A stretch of 64,000 bases of DNA from NCBI RefSeq assembly GCF_024296685.1, contig NZ_CP100763.1:248001-312000 (forward strand), given 5' to 3'. Source of the stretch: Natrinema marinum (GTDB lineage Archaea > Halobacteriota > Halobacteria > Halobacteriales > Natrialbaceae). The translations under genes and the position numbers were made by a program. Below the pieces are notes generated by a model that worked only from the letters and a program-made list of their open reading frames with translations, searched no databases and was not told where the DNA came from. How positions within the stretch are numbered: position 1 is the stretch's first letter; every line of letters starts with the position of its first letter. Positions 1,479 through 8,425 of the stretch are shown here, piece after piece.

Positions 1479-2471
1479 ATGAGTTCAGGAACTGAGAACA
1501 CGGATACGACGGACGAATCGGACTCCGGCGGCGGCCACTGCTCGACGCCGGATTCGGACGGCGAGGTCGCCGAGGAGATCGCGATCGTCTCCTTCGGTCG
1601 GAAGATGGACACCGCCGAGGAGATCAAAGCCGAACTCGAGGATCGCTACGAGGCGATCGAGATCCTCGAGTACCACGGCGACGTCTTCGAGGAACACTGG
1701 GGCGAGTACGACTGCTTCGTCGGGCTGATGGCCTCGGGGATCGCCATGCGGAAGACGGCCCACCTGCTCGACGACAAGTGGGAGGACCCCGCGATCTGCG
1801 TCGTCGACGAGGAACTCACGTGGGCGATCCCGATCACGGGCGGGCACCACGGCGCGAATCAGGTCGCGCAAGATCTGGCGACGATGGGTGCGGTTCCGGC
1901 GATGACGACCGCCTCCGAAGCGGCCGGCAAGCAGGGTGTCGAGTCCCGCGCGAAGGCGATGGACGCCCACGTCGTCAACGGCGACTCGACGGTGAAGACG
2001 AACCTCGCCGTGCTGGACGACGATCTCGGTCCCGTCGCCCGACTCGAGGGGCCCAGAGCCGTCCTCGTCGGCGACGACGTGACGGTGCTCAAGCGCAACG
2101 AAGACGACGGCGTCGTGCTCGGTACCGGCAGCGTCTCCGGCGCGAGCAAAGCGGCCTTCCTCGCCGCCTGGGAGGACGCCCTCGAGCGGACCGACTACGA
2201 CGTCGCGGACGTCGAGTTCGTCGGCACTGCGACGCGAAAGGAAGACGAGGAGGGGCTGCTTGAGGCCGCACGGGAACTCGATCTGGGCGTCGTTGCCTTC
2301 GACAAGGAGACGCTGCTCGCACACGAGGGGCCGACGCCCTCCAAATCGAAGGAGCTGATCGGCTGGCCGGGCGTCTCCGAGGCGAGCGCGATCGCCGGCG
2401 GGGCCGAGCAGGAACTGGTCCTCGAGAAGGTGAGCTACGAGAACGAGGTCACGGTGGCGATCGGTCGATGA
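1479..2471 (+). CDS. cbiG: Cobalt-precorrin-5A hydrolase (CbiG)
   Basis: The 330-residue protein fits CbiG, which opens the delta-lactone of cobalt-precorrin-5A and releases acetaldehyde. The first 33 residues are an acidic leader. The central domain has the family sequence [16 protein letters not shown] followed by an ITGGHHGAN block at 119-127. The C-terminal domain, from about residue 225, has the usual [14 protein letters not shown] and [19 protein letters not shown] stretches. A GAGAGGT ribosome-binding sequence precedes the ATG. The stop overlaps the next start by 4 nt (ATGA). Confidence 0.92.
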
Positions 2472-3376
2472 ACGTCGAGGATGCAGCTACCAGCGGCGAC
2501 GGCACGCCCGACGACCACGGCACGCTTTATGTCGTCGGGATCGGCCCCGGTCTGCCCGACCACATGACCGCGCGAGCGAAGGAGGTCATCGAGTCCGCAG
2601 ACGTGGTCATCGCCTCGAGCCTCTATCAGGAGTTCCTGCGGGCCGACGGCACCCTCCTGCCCGAGGAGGAGACGGACGAGGACGGTGTCGCCGTCCGCGA
2701 GGGCGACACCGCAGCGCGAGCCCAAGGCGACCGCGAGGACGGCTTCGAGCAGGAGATCGTCCGCTCGACGATGGGTCGGCAGATCGAACTCGCCCGCGCG
2801 GCGTTCGACTACGTGCGCGAGGGAAAGGACGTGGCCCACGTCTCGGGCGGTGACCCCTCCGTGTACGGCAAGTCCGACCTCGTCTTCACGATGGCCGAAG
2901 CGGAGGACGCCACGGACGTTCCCATCGAGATCGTCCCCGGCATCACCGCGGCGCTGGGCGGTGCGGCCAACGTCGGCGCGCCGCTGTGTAACGACTTCTG
3001 TACCGTCTCGCTGTCGGACAAGTGGCGCGGCTGGGACGAGATCGAGGAGAAGCTGCGCGCGGCCGCAATCAGCGACTTCGTGATCGTCCTCTACAACTGC
3101 TGGCGAAACTACGAGAAGGCCGTCGAGATCGTCCGCGAGGAGCGGACCGACGACGCCTACGTGGCCATCGTCAACGACGCCGGCCGAGAGGACGCCGGCC
3201 GCAACGGCGAGAGCCAGTTCATCACGACGCTCGGCGAGGCCGTCGACCACGACGACAAGGTGTCGGGGATGGGCACCTCGCTGCTCATCGGCACCCACGA
3301 GACCGAGACCTGGCGCAACGACGACCGAACGTACCTCGTCACCCCGCGCGGCGGGCGTGACGTCGACGATTTCTGA
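2468..3376 (+). CDS. cbiH: Precorrin-3B C17-methyltransferase family protein (CbiH, copy 1)
   Basis: This 302-residue tetrapyrrole methylase is CbiH-like; CbiH methylates C17 and contracts the ring of cobalt-factor III. It has the SAM loop GIGPG at 24-28, the SGGDPSVYG motif from 126, and the VPGITAALGGAANVGAPLCNDF block characteristic of CbiH/CobJ. The C-terminal half keeps LYNCWRNYEKAVEIV, close to the usual YNP-type helix. Residues about 59-100 are a charged insertion. It overlaps cbiG by 4 nt and is followed 8 nt later by a second CbiH-type gene. Which copy performs the classical ring contraction cannot be told from sequence alone. Confidence 0.88.
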   Translation: MNVEDAATSGDGTPDDHGTLYVVGIGPGLPDHMTARAKEVIESADVVIASSLYQEFLRADGTLLPEEETDEDGVAVREGDTAARAQGDREDGFEQEIVRSTMGRQIELARAAFDYVREGKDVAHVSGGDPSVYGKSDLVFTMAEAEDATDVPIEIVPGITAALGGAANVGAPLCNDFCTVSLSDKWRGWDEIEEKLRAAAISDFVIVLYNCWRNYEKAVEIVREERTDDAYVAIVNDAGREDAGRNGESQFITTLGEAVDHDDKVSGMGTSLLIGTHETETWRNDDRTYLVTPRGGRDVDDF

Positions 3377-3384
3377 ACCCAACC

Positions 3385-4419
3385 ATGAGTACGGACACAA
3401 ATGCGGACGCTGACGACGAATCGACTTCTAAGTGCGGTGCCTCCTCGAACGGCGAGGCCAGCACCGAGCCCTCGAGGTCCAAATGCGGAGCTTCGAGCAC
3501 CAGCGACACCGACGACTCGAGTACCTCGACGTGCGGCGCATCCTCGAGTGCGAGTTCCTCGGCCTCGAGTTGCGGCGCCTCGAGTTCGGACGATGGTGGC
3601 TCGAACGAGCAGGAGGTCGGCGCGACGGTCGACGACTTCGATGCCGAGCCCGGGCAGCTGATCGCCGTCGGTCTCGGCCCCGGCCACCCGGAAGGGATGA
3701 CCGACCGCGCGAAGGCGGCGCTGCTCGAGGCCGACCACATCGTCGGCTACACGACTTACATCGAGCTCATCCCGGACGAGATCACCGAGGAAGCCGACGA
3801 TATCTACGACACGCCGATGTGCGGCGAGGTCTCCCGCACCGAGGAATCGATCGATCGCGCGCTCGCGGGCAACGACGTGGCGATCGTCGGCAGCGGCGAC
3901 CCCAACGTCTACGCGCTGTCCGGACTCGCACTCGAGATCTTGGAGTCCAAGGGCGCGACGGCCTCGATGGTTGACTTCGAGGTCGTTCCCGGCGTGCCGG
4001 CGGCCCAGTCCTGTGCGGCCCGGCTGGGCGCGCCGCTGGTCAACGACACCGTCTCGGTCTCGCTGTCGGACCACCTCGTCCCGATGCCGGAGATCGAATC
4101 GCGGCTGCACTCCGTCGCAAGCGAGAACTTCACGATCACGATCTACAACCCGTGGAGCCGCAAGCGCCGAGAGAACTTCCAGAAGTGCTGTGAGATCCTC
4201 CTGACCCACCGCGACCCCGACACGCCGGTCGGCATCGTCCACGGTGCCGGCCGCGAGGACGAGCAGGTGATGATCACCGAACTCGCCGAACTCGAGGACC
4301 TCGGTGAGAGCGAGCTCATCGACATGACGACGACGATCGTCGTCGGCACCGAGGACACCTACGTCTGGGACGACCGGATGGTCACGCCGCGGGGCTACGA
4401 GACGAAGTACGATTACTAA
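3385..4419 (+). CDS. cbiH: CbiH-type methyltransferase, copy 2, with Cys-rich N-terminal repeats
   Basis: From about residue 90 this 344-residue protein is a clear CbiH: SAM loop GLGPG at 96-100, SGDPNVYAL, VVPGVPAAQSCAARLGAPL, and the YNPWSRKR sequence near residue 253, which is closer to classical CbiH than copy 1. The first 85 residues are a Ser-rich tract with four copies of a Cys-Gly-Ala-Ser-Ser unit (cysteines at 17, 34, 50 and 63). That tract is not part of the methylase fold and could bind metal or an iron-sulphur cluster. The gene lies between copy 1 and a small ferredoxin, 2 nt before the latter. In some bacteria CbiH carries a fused 4Fe-4S domain, so a link to the ferredoxin is plausible. 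Confidence 0.88.
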   Translation: MSTDTNADADDESTSKCGASSNGEASTEPSRSKCGASSTSDTDDSSTSTCGASSSASSSASSCGASSSDDGGSNEQEVGATVDDFDAEPGQLIAVGLGPGHPEGMTDRAKAALLEADHIVGYTTYIELIPDEITEEADDIYDTPMCGEVSRTEESIDRALAGNDVAIVGSGDPNVYALSGLALEILESKGATASMVDFEVVPGVPAAQSCAARLGAPLVNDTVSVSLSDHLVPMPEIESRLHSVASENFTITIYNPWSRKRRENFQKCCEILLTHRDPDTPVGIVHGAGREDEQVMITELAELEDLGESELIDMTTTIVVGTEDTYVWDDRMVTPRGYETKYDY

Positions 4420-4421
4420 CG

Positions 4422-4688
4422 ATGGCACGATACGAAGTCACCATCGAGAAAGACGCCTGCGACGGCATCTTCGCCTGTCTGACCCGCGACCCACGGTTCG
4501 TCGAGGGCGCGGACGGCCTCGCGACGATCGACCCGAACGCGGATCCGGTCTACGACTGCGAGGGCGAGGTCACGGACACTGCCGAGCGCGTCGTCGCGAC
4601 GTTCGACGACGACCGCATCGACGAAGCGCAGCAGGCCGCGGCGGCCTGCCCGACGGACGCCATCGTCGTCCGGGAGGTGGGCGAATGA
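4422..4688 (+). CDS. Small single-cluster ferredoxin of the cobalamin operon
   Basis: This 88-residue acidic protein has the sparse cysteine pattern of single-cluster [3Fe-4S]/[4Fe-4S] ferredoxins: C13-x5-C19 near the N-terminus and C76-Pro near the C-terminus (AACPTDAI), plus C46. The order (first cysteines in DACDGIFAC, last in CPTDAIVV) is that of 3Fe-4S-type ferredoxins. It lies 2 nt after the second cbiH and overlaps the next gene by 4 nt. An electron-transfer role with CbiH, CbiG or CbiX is inferred from position only. Confidence 0.8.
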   Translation: MARYEVTIEKDACDGIFACLTRDPRFVEGADGLATIDPNADPVYDCEGEVTDTAERVVATFDDDRIDEAQQAAAACPTDAIVVREVGE

Positions 4689-5422
4689 GCGACGCGGGGC
4701 CGACGACCGACGACGGCGCCCTCGAGGTCGCCGTCCCGTCTGACCCCCTCGCCGGCCACCCCGCGACGGCGTACTTCTGGGGGCACGTCGCCGGCAGCGG
4801 CGACGTCGCCGACAGTGTGATCGAGGTCGCCACCAACGACGAGGCGTCCGCGCAGGTGCTTGCGGCCGTCGCCGGCGGCGATCTCGAGCACGAGATGACG
4901 ACTCGAGACTACGCTCACGACACCTCGATTACGCGTACGGAGGACGAGTACACGCTGTCGATCGGCGGCGATGGCAGCGAGGACGACGAAACGGACGAGT
5001 CGGGACTGCTCGGCCGCAGCGGCGCGCTGGGCCTTCCCGTCGACGGCCGCGGCAACTACCGCTTCGGCGCGTTCGTGAACCACGATCGGGAACTCCTGCC
5101 GGGGCTGCTCGAGGGCTGTGGCACCATCTGCTTCAAGTCCTCGACGGGCACCGTGGGAATCTCGTTCGTTCACGACGACCGGGAGCTGCTCGAGTTCGCA
5201 CAGGACGTGATTTCGGAGTCTCCCGTGGACGCGCCCGTCGACGACCTCTCCGAGACGTCCTCGGGCGGCTACTGGTTCGGCGTCGACGACGACGCCGCGC
5301 CCGCCTTCGGCACGTGGCTCTACGAGAACTGTGAGGAAACCGGACTGTTCGCCCCGAGTCGCCGGCGCAAACTCGAGCGGAGCCTCGAGCAAGCGTCGGC
5401 GTACGACGGCGAGGCGGCCTGA
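4685..5422 (+). CDS. LAGLIDADG-fold protein lacking catalytic acids, in cobalamin operon
   Basis: This 245-residue protein has no enzyme family that I can name in B12 synthesis. Its layout matches a two-repeat LAGLIDADG protein. Residues 31-40 (FWGHVAGSGD) and 138-148 (LPGLLEGCGTI) align with the two LAGLIDADG helices. Each is followed by a strand and a DDRELLEFAQDV-like helix. The C-terminus ends WLYENCEETGLF...RRRKLE, like the last helices of homing endonucleases. The acidic residue that binds the metal is Ser38 in the first motif and Cys145 in the second, so nuclease activity is unlikely. A hydrophilic linker fills about 95-115. The gene overlaps the ferredoxin by 4 nt and lies 12 nt before cbiX, so it belongs to the operon. 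Its function is unknown. Confidence 0.6.
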   Translation: MSDAGPTTDDGALEVAVPSDPLAGHPATAYFWGHVAGSGDVADSVIEVATNDEASAQVLAAVAGGDLEHEMTTRDYAHDTSITRTEDEYTLSIGGDGSEDDETDESGLLGRSGALGLPVDGRGNYRFGAFVNHDRELLPGLLEGCGTICFKSSTGTVGISFVHDDRELLEFAQDVISESPVDAPVDDLSETSSGGYWFGVDDDAAPAFGTWLYENCEETGLFAPSRRRKLERSLEQASAYDGEAA

Positions 5423-5434
5423 GACCGACGATCG

Positions 5435-6667
5435 ATGAGCACACCCGACGAGACCATGTCCGCGGCGGTCGCTGGCTTCGACGACGAAGCCGTCCTGCTG
5501 GTCGGCCACGGCTCCAGACGCGAGAAATCCAACGAACAGGTGCGCGAACTGGCCGCCGACCTCGAGTCGCGACTCGGGATTCCGGTCGACGCCGCCTTCC
5601 TCGAACTCGCGGAGCCGGCGATCGACGAGGCGTTCGCGGGGCTCGCGCCCGTCGCCGAGCGCGTGACCGTCGTCCACTGTTCGCTGTTCGCCGCGAGCCA
5701 CGTCAAAAACGACGTGCCGCTGGCGATCGAGCAGGCTCGCGCCGAACACGACCTCGAGATCCGAAACGGCGCGCATCTCGGCGTCCACCCCGCAATCTTG
5801 GACCTGCTGGACGACCGCGCTGCCGCCGTCGAGCGCGACCTCGGCGTCGACCGCGAGGACGACGACGTGGCCGTCGTCGTCTGTGGCCGGGGCTCGAGCG
5901 ACCCGGACGCCAACGGCGACGTACACAAACTCGCTCGGCTGCTGTTCGAGGGCCGCGCGTTCGACCGCGTCGAGGCGTCCTTTATCGGCGTCACCGAGCC
6001 GACGCTCGAGGAGAGCCTCCACGGACTCTCGAAGCACCGACCAGACGCGGTCGTCGTCCTGCCCTATATGCTCGGCGACGGCGTCCTCACCCAGCGGGTG
6101 CGCGATTGGACCGCCGACTTCGACGCGGACTACCCCTACGTCGACGCGCTCGCCGGCGACCCGCTCGGCACGGATTCGCGGCTGCTCGATGTCTTCGCCG
6201 ACCGCTGGCAGGAGGCGCGATCGGGGAGCGTCGAGATGTCCTGTGACACGTGCAAGTACAAGGTCGACCTCGAGGGCTACGAGGAGGACGTCGGCGGCGC
6301 GCGGGCGATGCTCCGCGCGCTCGCCCACCAGGAGGCCCACGCCGACCGCGAGGACGTCGACGACGAGCCCCACAGCCACGACGCGCCCGAAAAACACGTC
6401 GCGGTCTGTCTGAACCAGACCTGCGCCGAACAGGGGTCGCCGGCGGTCCTCGAGCGCTTACGCCAGGAAGCCCGCGACTCCGAGCACTGTGACGCCCGCA
6501 TCACGCGGTCGTCCTGTCTGGGGCGCTGTGGCGACGGGCCGATGGTCGCGGTCTACCCGGACGGGATCTGGTACGGCGACGTGGCGGGCGCGGACGCCGA
6601 ACGGATCGTGGCCGACCACCTCGATCGGGACCGCATCGTCAGCGACCTCGTCGATCAGACGCTGTAG
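5435..6667 (+). CDS. cbiX: Sirohydrochlorin cobaltochelatase CbiX with C-terminal [2Fe-2S] domain
   Basis: CbiX inserts cobalt into sirohydrochlorin, the entry step of the cobalt-early pathway. The first 265 residues hold two chelatase half-domains: LLVGHGSR around His25 plus VHCSLFAASHVKNDVP, then VVCGRGSSDPDANGD and LPYMLGDGVL. A CDTCKYKVDLEGYEED segment follows, then a charged His-rich linker and a thioredoxin-like [2Fe-2S] domain with the Cx4C (CLNQTC) and Cx3C (CLGRC) pairs and the closing YPDGIWYGDV sequence. The total of 410 residues suits the long CbiX form with a ferredoxin extension. A downstream ATG at 5456 is an alternative start that would leave the chelatase domain intact. Confidence 0.9.
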   Translation: MSTPDETMSAAVAGFDDEAVLLVGHGSRREKSNEQVRELAADLESRLGIPVDAAFLELAEPAIDEAFAGLAPVAERVTVVHCSLFAASHVKNDVPLAIEQARAEHDLEIRNGAHLGVHPAILDLLDDRAAAVERDLGVDREDDDVAVVVCGRGSSDPDANGDVHKLARLLFEGRAFDRVEASFIGVTEPTLEESLHGLSKHRPDAVVVLPYMLGDGVLTQRVRDWTADFDADYPYVDALAGDPLGTDSRLLDVFADRWQEARSGSVEMSCDTCKYKVDLEGYEEDVGGARAMLRALAHQEAHADREDVDDEPHSHDAPEKHVAVCLNQTCAEQGSPAVLERLRQEARDSEHCDARITRSSCLGRCGDGPMVAVYPDGIWYGDVAGADAERIVADHLDRDRIVSDLVDQTL

Positions 6668-6746: not shown

Positions 6747-7118
6747 ATGAGCTGCCACGAAATCGAAGCACTGCGACTCGGACTGATGAGCGTCCTCGGC
6801 GTCGGGGACGACAGCGCTCGCGAACACGCGGAAAAGGAACTCGAGGGTCACCTCGAGGGCCCTATCCAGGGGCTCGCGGAGGCCGACAGCCTCGCGGAAG
6901 TAACGCGCCACCTCGATGCGGCGCTGGTCGATCTAGAAGAGGAGGTCGCCGCGATGGAGAGCGACGACCCCGAATACGATTACACGCGGGGGCGGTTGCT
7001 CGCCGTTCGCGACGCCGAGCGGGCGGTCCAGCGGCTGTCCGCACAGGGCGAGCACATCGTCGACGGACTCGGCGACGCTCACGACACCCTCCACGAGACG
7101 TTCCCGGTCGAGGAGTGA
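6747..7118 (+). CDS. DUF3209-like cobalamin-cluster protein
   Basis: This 123-residue acidic, mostly helical protein begins MSCHEIEALRLGLMSVLG, which I recognise as the signature of the DUF3209 family of archaeal proteins found near cobalamin and cobaltochelatase genes. No catalytic motif is visible. The N-terminal Cys-His pair (residues 3-4) could bind a metal. An AT-rich gap of 79 bp separates it from cbiX, so it may have its own promoter. Its stop overlaps the sequence just before the propeller gene, so those two are coupled. The family assignment is from memory of the N-terminal sequence; the function is unknown. Confidence 0.7.
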   Translation: MSCHEIEALRLGLMSVLGVGDDSAREHAEKELEGHLEGPIQGLAEADSLAEVTRHLDAALVDLEEEVAAMESDDPEYDYTRGRLLAVRDAERAVQRLSAQGEHIVDGLGDAHDTLHETFPVEE

Positions 7119-7120
7119 CG

Positions 7121-8425
7121 ATGAGCGAAACTGCAACCGATACCGATCGCGAGCCCAGGTTCCGATCGGTCCCGCTCGGCGAGATCGAACCCGCCCGCAG
7201 CCGGCATATGTGGACCCGTTCTGCGGTCTGCATCGCCGCGTCCGGCTACCTCGTCGTCACCGGCGAGTGGGACGGCACCGTCACCGCCCGCGACGCCGAC
7301 TCCCTCGAGGCGCGCTGGACGGCCGATCATCCGGACCACGCAGTCGGGATCGCGTCGCTCGAGGACAGGGGCGACGCGAACGCCGACGGAGACGAGGCCG
7401 AGACGATCGTCGTCGCCGGCCGCGGCGAAACGGGGACGATCGCGGCCTACGACGCGGAGACGGGCGACCGGCGCTGGCGCTACGACACCGTCGCCGACGT
7501 GGGCGAGGCGGTCGAAGACACCGTCTTCTATCTACCCTACGTCGTCGCGCTCGAGGCCGGCACCGACGCCGACGGAAACGCCGTGCTCTACGCGGCCGCG
7601 CGCCGCTACGAGCGCGACGGGGAGACCCGGCAGTGGCACAGCACCGTCTACGCGTTCGACGCCGACGGATCGATCCGGTGGACTCACGAGACCGACGCCT
7701 CGCCGATCGCGCTCGATCTCGACGGCGACGGCGACCGCCTCGCGGTGGGCTACAACCGCTGTCTGGGCGACCACGACACCGGACTCGTCGTTCTCGAGAC
7801 GGCGTCGGGCGAGCTCGCGTGGACGTGGGACCCCGGCACCGAGGGCGACCGCCGCATCGGCGACGTTTCCGTCGACGGGGAATCGATCGCCGTCTCGAGC
7901 CACGGCGACAAGCGCGGCTACCTGCTCGGTCCGGGCGGGGCCGAGCGCTGGAGCGTTGACCTCGCCGTCGAGACCGAAATCGACGGCGAGACGCTGTACG
8001 CGTACCCGAACCACGCCTACGCGAACGACGCCCGGGTGGCGTTCGTCACCGGCAACACCTACGCCGTCGAGAGCCGCGAGACCGAGAACCGGCACCCGAA
8101 CGAACACCGGGTCGCCGCGTTCGACGCCGACGGCGACCCGCTGTGGGACGACGCGGTCCGCGGCTTCGTCCACGGGCTCGCGGCCGACGGAAATCGGCTC
8201 GTCGCCCCCTGCGCGCAGAACTTCCGCGTGCGCGATCCCGACACGCACGCCATCAGTTGCTTCGACCTCGAGTCCGGCGCGGGCGGTCGCGAGCGGTTCG
8301 ACGGCATCGCCACGGCGGCCGCCGTCGCCGACGGCACCGTCGCCGCCATCGAGGAACCGGTGCGGTACCACGACGAGGGGGAGACCCGCGGCGAATACGC
8401 GCTTCGGGTCGCCTCGCTCGAGTAG
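7121..8425 (+). CDS. PQQ-type beta-propeller repeat protein
   Basis: The 434-residue protein has repeated blade units such as VVTGEWDGTVTARDADSLEARW, IAAYDAETGDRRWRYD, VYAFDADGSIRWTHE and LVVLETASGELAWTWD, which are the quinoprotein-type (PQQ_2) blades with a Trp at each end. No signal peptide or membrane segment is visible, so it probably acts in the cytoplasm as a binding scaffold. The ATG at 7121 has a GAGGAG ribosome-binding site 5 nt before it (7110-7115) and is preferred over the GTG at 7115. It follows the DUF3209-like gene directly and converges on the transporter operon. A link to cobalamin synthesis is inferred from the operon only. Confidence 0.75.
   Translation: MSETATDTDREPRFRSVPLGEIEPARSRHMWTRSAVCIAASGYLVVTGEWDGTVTARDADSLEARWTADHPDHAVGIASLEDRGDANADGDEAETIVVAGRGETGTIAAYDAETGDRRWRYDTVADVGEAVEDTVFYLPYVVALEAGTDADGNAVLYAAARRYERDGETRQWHSTVYAFDADGSIRWTHETDASPIALDLDGDGDRLAVGYNRCLGDHDTGLVVLETASGELAWTWDPGTEGDRRIGDVSVDGESIAVSSHGDKRGYLLGPGGAERWSVDLAVETEIDGETLYAYPNHAYANDARVAFVTGNTYAVESRETENRHPNEHRVAAFDADGDPLWDDAVRGFVHGLAADGNRLVAPCAQNFRVRDPDTHAISCFDLESGAGGRERFDGIATAAAVADGTVAAIEEPVRYHDEGETRGEYALRVASLE

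Follow-up and report, generated by a model that had tools for sequence, protein, structure and literature searches.

A LAGLIDADG-fold protein, almost certainly nuclease dead, encoded in the cobalamin operon of haloarchaea

LAGLIDADG endonucleases cut DNA with one Asp per motif. To our knowledge, selfish DNA-cutting proteins have rarely been traced into host metabolism, and the main bacterial example is WhiA. In the N-terminal LAGLIDADG domain of WhiA (DUF199; PDB 3HYJ, 3HYI, and 8DY9), catalysis has been lost and DNA recognition resides in a separate helix-turn-helix (HTH) domain (PMC4850268, PMC3781837). The 245-aa haloarchaeal protein described here, for which we use the short name LAG, resembles the WhiA domain in its two-repeat fold, its lost catalytic acids, its domestication, and, by analogy, a functional link to an Fe-S protein. 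Unlike WhiA, it is encoded in a haloarchaeal B12 operon and carries an invariant Cys145/Cys149 pair, and the two share 11 to 15% identity. LAG is thus a domesticated LAGLIDADG protein like WhiA, with the same kind of degenerate domain, yet it is no WhiA, since the C-terminal HTH (HTH_WhiA) is missing.

The LAG family shares its fold and two motif helices with PF14528 (LAGLIDADG_3) and with archaeal endonucleases such as I-DmoI (PDB 2VS7), and the motif 2 sequence of PF14528 is matched in family members. In contrast to both, LAG has no motif 2 acid, nearly always pairs a motif 1 Asp, where present, with Arg34, and occupies a stable locus rather than an intron, intein, or mobile element. The nearest described gene by position is HVO_B0055 of Haloferax volcanii, which likewise lies between ferredoxin and cbiX in the cobalamin cluster and is orthologous to LAG by synteny. 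HVO_B0055 was published as “function unassigned,” without a fold or mechanism, and is one of four orphan cluster genes proposed for EC 2.1.1.195 (CbiD) and EC 1.3.1.106 (CbiJ) (PMC8305020). We found no paper tying a LAGLIDADG protein to cobalamin synthesis in the literature searched; within that scope, the original prediction was right that no function of this type had been described for the pathway.

The gene and its operon

The window, i.e., the whole 64,000-nucleotide stretch of Natrinema marinum DNA analyzed, contains the block cbiL(end)-cbiF-cbiG-cbiH1-cbiH2-fer-LAG-cbiX-DUF3209-PQQ, all on the + strand. By the nearest named loci, the organism belongs to Natrialbaceae, close to Natrinema and Haloterrigena. 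Family matches identified cbiF (cobalt-precorrin-4 C11-methyltransferase, positions 375-1271), cbiG (cobalt-precorrin-5A hydrolase, 1479-2471), cbiH1 (2468-3376), and cbiH2 (precorrin-3B C17-methyltransferase family, 3385-4419). These are followed by a single-cluster ferredoxin (Fer4_15, 4422-4688) and LAG, a member of the HVO_B0055 family (4685-5422). The two are translationally coupled by a 4-nt overlap (ATGA, 4685-4688) that contains both the LAG start codon and the ferredoxin stop codon; this in-frame stop/start overlap recurs in 90/99 loci. Only 12 nt downstream of LAG begins the gene for the cobaltochelatase CbiX (5435-6667), which combines an MxCxxC motif with a thioredoxin-like [2Fe-2S] domain at its C terminus. 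The block closes with a helical DUF3209 protein (6747-7118), modeled with the same fold as TTHB059 (PDB 2EHW), and a PQQ-type beta-propeller protein (7115-8425). The DUF3209 model gave no direct clue to LAG.

Of 20 diverse loci, nearly all conserve this order; at one (L039), LAG lies outside the cluster. Distant loci share a median identity of 56% in LAG versus 69 to 79% in CbiF, CbiG, CbiH1, CbiH2, and CbiX, the faster divergence expected for an accessory protein. An apparent fusion of LAG with the upstream protein in L014 was rejected, because the long ORF reflects alternative-frame readthrough in GC-rich DNA.

Several features of the neighbors were also recorded. The ferredoxin has three invariant Cys residues (CDGIFAC...ACP) and may hold a [3Fe-4S] or site-differentiated [4Fe-4S] cluster, and DUF3209 has invariant Cys and His residues. 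The pair formed by DUF3209 and the [2Fe-2S]-type CbiX occurs in Leptospira too (L139), where DUF3209 lies between cbiX and a gene for an FAD-dependent oxidoreductase, followed by cbiD.

Fold and active-site residues

The AlphaFold2 model of LAG, computed with 39 sequences of its own family as input, reached a pLDDT of 82.1 and a pTM of 0.80. Repeat 1 runs helix-strand-strand-helix-strand-strand, and repeat 2 starts with the matching helix-strand-strand-helix, in agreement with the superfamily arrangement of two alpha-beta-beta-alpha-beta-beta-alpha repeats packed via their LAGLIDADG helices. Fifty PDB chains matched the model (Foldseek, E ≤ 0.001), and all 50 were WhiA, LAGLIDADG endonucleases or maturases, or intein endonucleases. 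The top match was the WhiA LAGLIDADG domain (3HYJ, E = 7.8e-7), with maturases, I-DmoI, inteins, and further LAGLIDADG endonucleases ranking below it. VIA-align also ranked WhiA best (8DY9; Z = 15.0 over 187 residues at 3.4 Å), with I-DmoI at Z = 14.6. We gave no weight to the absence of other folds from these lists. The original prediction had read a two-repeat LAGLIDADG layout from the sequence, to be checked by structure search against LAGLIDADG and WhiA structures; both were recovered, WhiA first, bearing out the layout. By prediction and comparison, a two-repeat LAGLIDADG fold for LAG is virtually certain.

Family profiles reached the fold through relatives of the window protein, which itself matched no Pfam or NCBIfam family. 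PF14528 was matched by 9/21 diverse homologues at a loose threshold (E ≤ 5), the best score being 24.8 bits (L036; E = 2.7e-5) and the other members falling below the curated cut-off of 22.5. A PHROGs search returned nothing decisive, with a single “endonuclease” match at 1.6e-5. Direct PDB sequence search with LAG found a C-type lectin, which we rejected as a chance match.

Motif 1 (FWGHVAGSGD, aa 31 to 40; 4775-4804) falls on model helix 26-38, and motif 2 (LPGLLEGCGTI, aa 138 to 148; 5096-5128) falls on helix 127-145. In place of the metal-binding acids they carry Ser38 and Cys145, respectively; these residues, the motif positions, and the C-terminal WLYENCEETGLF...RRRKLE all match the ORF translation exactly as first described. 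Of 114 distinct LAG homologues, 113 carry Cys at position 145 and the remaining one carries Ser; a motif 2 acid occurs in none of them. Cys149, in the strand after motif 2 (codon 5129-5131), is invariant (114/114), as are Glu143, Gly140, Gly146, His78, Arg126, Tyr213, Arg226, and Lys229. The Cys145/Cys149 pair sits at or beside the old metal site. Pro139 in the motif 2 helix (5099-5101) is private to this genome, and 113/114 homologues have Arg there (LLRGLLEGCGT).

Position 38 is more variable: Ser in 69 homologues, Asp in 34, Asn in 6, Gly in 4, and Ala in 1. One helical turn earlier, position 34 is Arg in 31 of the 34 homologues with Asp38 and His in 67 of the 69 with Ser38, a pattern from which we infer that the residual Asp38 is salt bridged and is not a metal ligand. 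Active nucleases have an Asp or Glu ending both motif helices, an arrangement that the LAG family lacks, and LAG is almost certainly not a nuclease. The idea of a domesticated, non-cutting relative that has lost its catalytic acids is thereby supported, as Asp occurs at both positions in no homologue; the proposed loss is general at position 145 and fails at position 38 in ∼30% of homologues.

The linker between the repeats (residues 95 to 125) is poorly predicted in the model. Within it, Gly116-Leu117-Pro118 is near-invariant in cluster-borne copies and absent from a copy encoded elsewhere (genome G070), a pattern that would fit partner binding.

Distribution and exceptional loci

We compared 391 genomes of the class, matching the LAG and CbiG lists by hand. 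LAG was found in 204/391 and CbiG in 210/391; 202 genomes have both, 8 have CbiG only (G040, G069, G071, G096, G303, G348, G349, and G388), and 2 have LAG only (G347 and G369). A profile search found no LAG in the eight CbiG-only genomes. The status of G369 is a contig-edge artifact, its contig beginning inside LAG and continuing with cbiX, DUF3209, and PQQ, and G347 is a genuine exception, with an intact, divergent LAG (L150:9494-10267), no cbi gene near it, and no detectable CbiG. Outside Halobacteria we found no relatives, all 24 matches in 295 phylum-wide genomes coming from the same order, and viral and phage collections contained none. We therefore rejected LAG as a mobile element, given its fixed operon position, its presence in 202/210 CbiG genomes, and the lack of viral or phage matches. 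LAG very likely works in B12 synthesis. Its membership in the pathway, suggested from the start by gene context, is upheld by its fixed cluster position and co-occurrence with CbiG and is qualified by the few copies outside the cluster (G070 and G347).

Haloarchaeal CbiX occurs in two forms, one with the C-terminal [2Fe-2S] domain and an adjoining DUF3209 and the other with a His-rich tail and no DUF3209 (observed at 5435-6667 of the window and at L131, L132, L133, L144, L145, and L130). In LAG clusters, CbiX has MxCxxC plus the [2Fe-2S] domain in 95/96 loci with a readable CbiX; three further LAG loci were left out of this count because the gene was truncated or misread. In the LAG-less genomes G096, G071, G069, G303, and G349, CbiX is His tailed and lacks the [2Fe-2S] domain, and neither ferredoxin nor DUF3209 adjoins it; for G303 and G349 the His-tailed form was expected before the loci were looked at. 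In LAG-less G388, cbiX is absent beside the cluster.

The LAG-less clusters of G040, G069, G071, and G096 run cbiL-F-G-H1-H2-cbiX with no other insert, except that G040 keeps fer, DUF3209, and PQQ. In G040, the exact LAG slot is filled by an extra 313-aa His-tailed CbiX (L134:12203-13144), present besides the usual CbiX and overlapping fer in the same way as LAG does. The His-tailed CbiX(L) cobaltochelatase, the prevailing type in LAG-less clusters, is therefore a possible functional counterpart of LAG, although it is a chelatase of unrelated fold and the two do not strictly exclude one another. L130 has LAG alongside a His-tailed CbiX, with DUF3209 missing, and in G104 no ferredoxin separates cbiH2 from LAG. 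We thus rejected as strict rules both that His-tailed CbiX replaces LAG and that LAG always needs ferredoxin; these exceptions indicate a gene set that is co-inherited yet separable.

In G070, LAG lies outside the B12 cluster in a tight same-strand block, CDF-LAG-rhodanese-CDF (L039:3545-6554), and cbiX is paired with DUF3209 elsewhere. The same genome encodes a 2,214-aa ribonucleotide-reductase-like ORF (L142:9354-15998) that appears to contain several inteins.

Candidate roles of LAG

We favor, at a probability of roughly 0.4, a role for LAG in cobalt or thiol-redox handling, as opposed to regulation or catalysis. Haloarchaea would have domesticated LAG from a homing-endonuclease lineage and fixed it in the cobalt-early B12 operon, where, without catalysis of its own, it would assist cobalt insertion and redox chemistry, the part of the pathway served by the ferredoxin and CbiX. 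Through the thiol pair Cys145/Cys149, which took the place of the nuclease metal site, LAG may bind Co(II) itself or a partner that is metallated or carries Fe-S, and it could in this way retain, pass on, or gate cobalt or electrons destined for CbiX and later steps. Metal binding is putative; what speaks to it is the invariance of the two Cys residues and the genomic setting. The more specific proposal, that the scaffold was rebuilt from a nuclease metal site into a Cys145/Cys149 thiolate site with which ferredoxin-coupled LAG delivers or gates cobalt for B12, is tentative and somewhat doubtful. We know of no LAGLIDADG protein with such a delivery or gating role.

Several contexts hint at a cobalt or redox function. 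These are the extra His-tailed CbiX in the LAG slot of G040 and the placement of LAG between two cation-efflux (CDF) genes in G070, each seen in one genome, and the His-tailed CbiX of five LAG-less clusters as opposed to the [2Fe-2S] CbiX beside LAG. Also consistent is the Bacillus CbiX(L), whose MXCXXC is cited as the site of a 4Fe-4S centre (PMC7242693, its ref. 109). Counting against the same function are the non-strict association seen in L130 and G104, the intact LAG of G347, which has no detectable CbiG and no metal genes next to LAG, and the confounding of CbiX type with ancestry, though the LAG-less cases span several families.

A WhiA-like regulator, which would use the saddle of its dead LAGLIDADG fold to bind DNA or contact a transcription factor and so control the B12 operon, perhaps with the ferredoxin as an Fe-S sensor, is rather unlikely. 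The WhiA LAGLIDADG domains are the closest structural neighbors, and the coupling of LAG to a ferredoxin recalls that WhiA acts with the Fe-S protein WhiB (PMC4850268), but in WhiA the LAGLIDADG part is reportedly not what reads the DNA (PMC4850268, PMC3781837). LAG itself ends with repeat 2, and Pfam and NCBIfam scans found no HTH family in it. Invariant or near-invariant basic residues (R74, R84, R126, R139, K151, R226, and K229) would suit nucleic acid binding, one of the roles that the original prediction proposed. Against this stands the net charge of −26 over the 197 residues of the structured part, though haloarchaeal proteins are acidic in general.

Also in favor of regulation, the operon is preceded by an operator-like repeat that is strongly conserved. 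Its form CAAnCAAAATTGTTTT lies upstream of cbiT, the first operon gene, and is common to haloarchaeal loci, with AAAACAATT in 66/67. The window's genome has one copy at ≤1 mismatch (G000:C1:246916-246931; L143:5917), about 1.1 kb (1.07 kb) upstream of the window start. However, 7/7 LAG-less genomes examined (G096, G071, G069, G040, G303, G349, and G388) keep a related element that differs by one or two changes, and the region ahead of the CDF-LAG block in G070 offers no clear copy, its best match having 3 mismatches. Retention of the repeat without LAG suggests that the element probably belongs to another regulator and that LAG is not its sole reader, which lowers the case for regulation; together with the missing HTH domain, it tells against the nucleic-acid-binding role first envisaged. 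As an inverted repeat, CAAACAAAATTGTTTT, the highly conserved element lies just before cbiT and usually occurs once per cluster-bearing haloarchaeal genome, LAG-less ones included.

It is improbable that LAG fills an open step of haloarchaeal B12 synthesis, either the CbiJ reduction, with ferredoxin as the donor, or the CbiD methylation. CbiD (PF01888) and CbiJ (PF02571) are absent from 100/100 haloarchaeal genomes tested, Pfeiffer and colleagues called the four unassigned cluster genes obvious candidates (PMC8305020), and the Cys pair of the ferredoxin-coupled LAG could be redox active. The LAG-less B12 clusters of G040, G069, G071, and G096, however, also lack CbiD and CbiJ, so the missing steps are done there without LAG. 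LAG moreover matches neither PF01888 nor PF02571, contains no enzyme family or cofactor motif that we could find, evolves faster than the pathway enzymes, and has a fold known for binding, not for tetrapyrrole chemistry.

That LAG binds RNA or works like a maturase, with the long cbi transcript or the translation of that transcript as its target, is very unlikely: LAGLIDADG maturases (bI3 and I-AniI) are among the structural matches and the cluster genes are tightly packed, but nothing noted at the locus suggests an intron or structured RNA target, and the G070 copy lies in a different gene block. That LAG is a selfish homing endonuclease, still active or in decay, that the operon happened to capture agrees with its fold and lineage and is nonetheless hardly credible, being refuted by the conservation pattern, in which both catalytic positions are lost and 114 homologues, nearly all at the same locus, have common invariant noncatalytic residues, and searches of phage and viral collections gave no match.

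Should LAG prove to assist B12 synthesis in metal or redox handling, it would represent a second kind of domestication, with new chemistry at an old active site, and one of the four published haloarchaeal B12-cluster orphan genes would gain a testable function. The LAG-less B12 clusters, in turn, narrow down where the missing CbiD and CbiJ activities of haloarchaea are to be sought.
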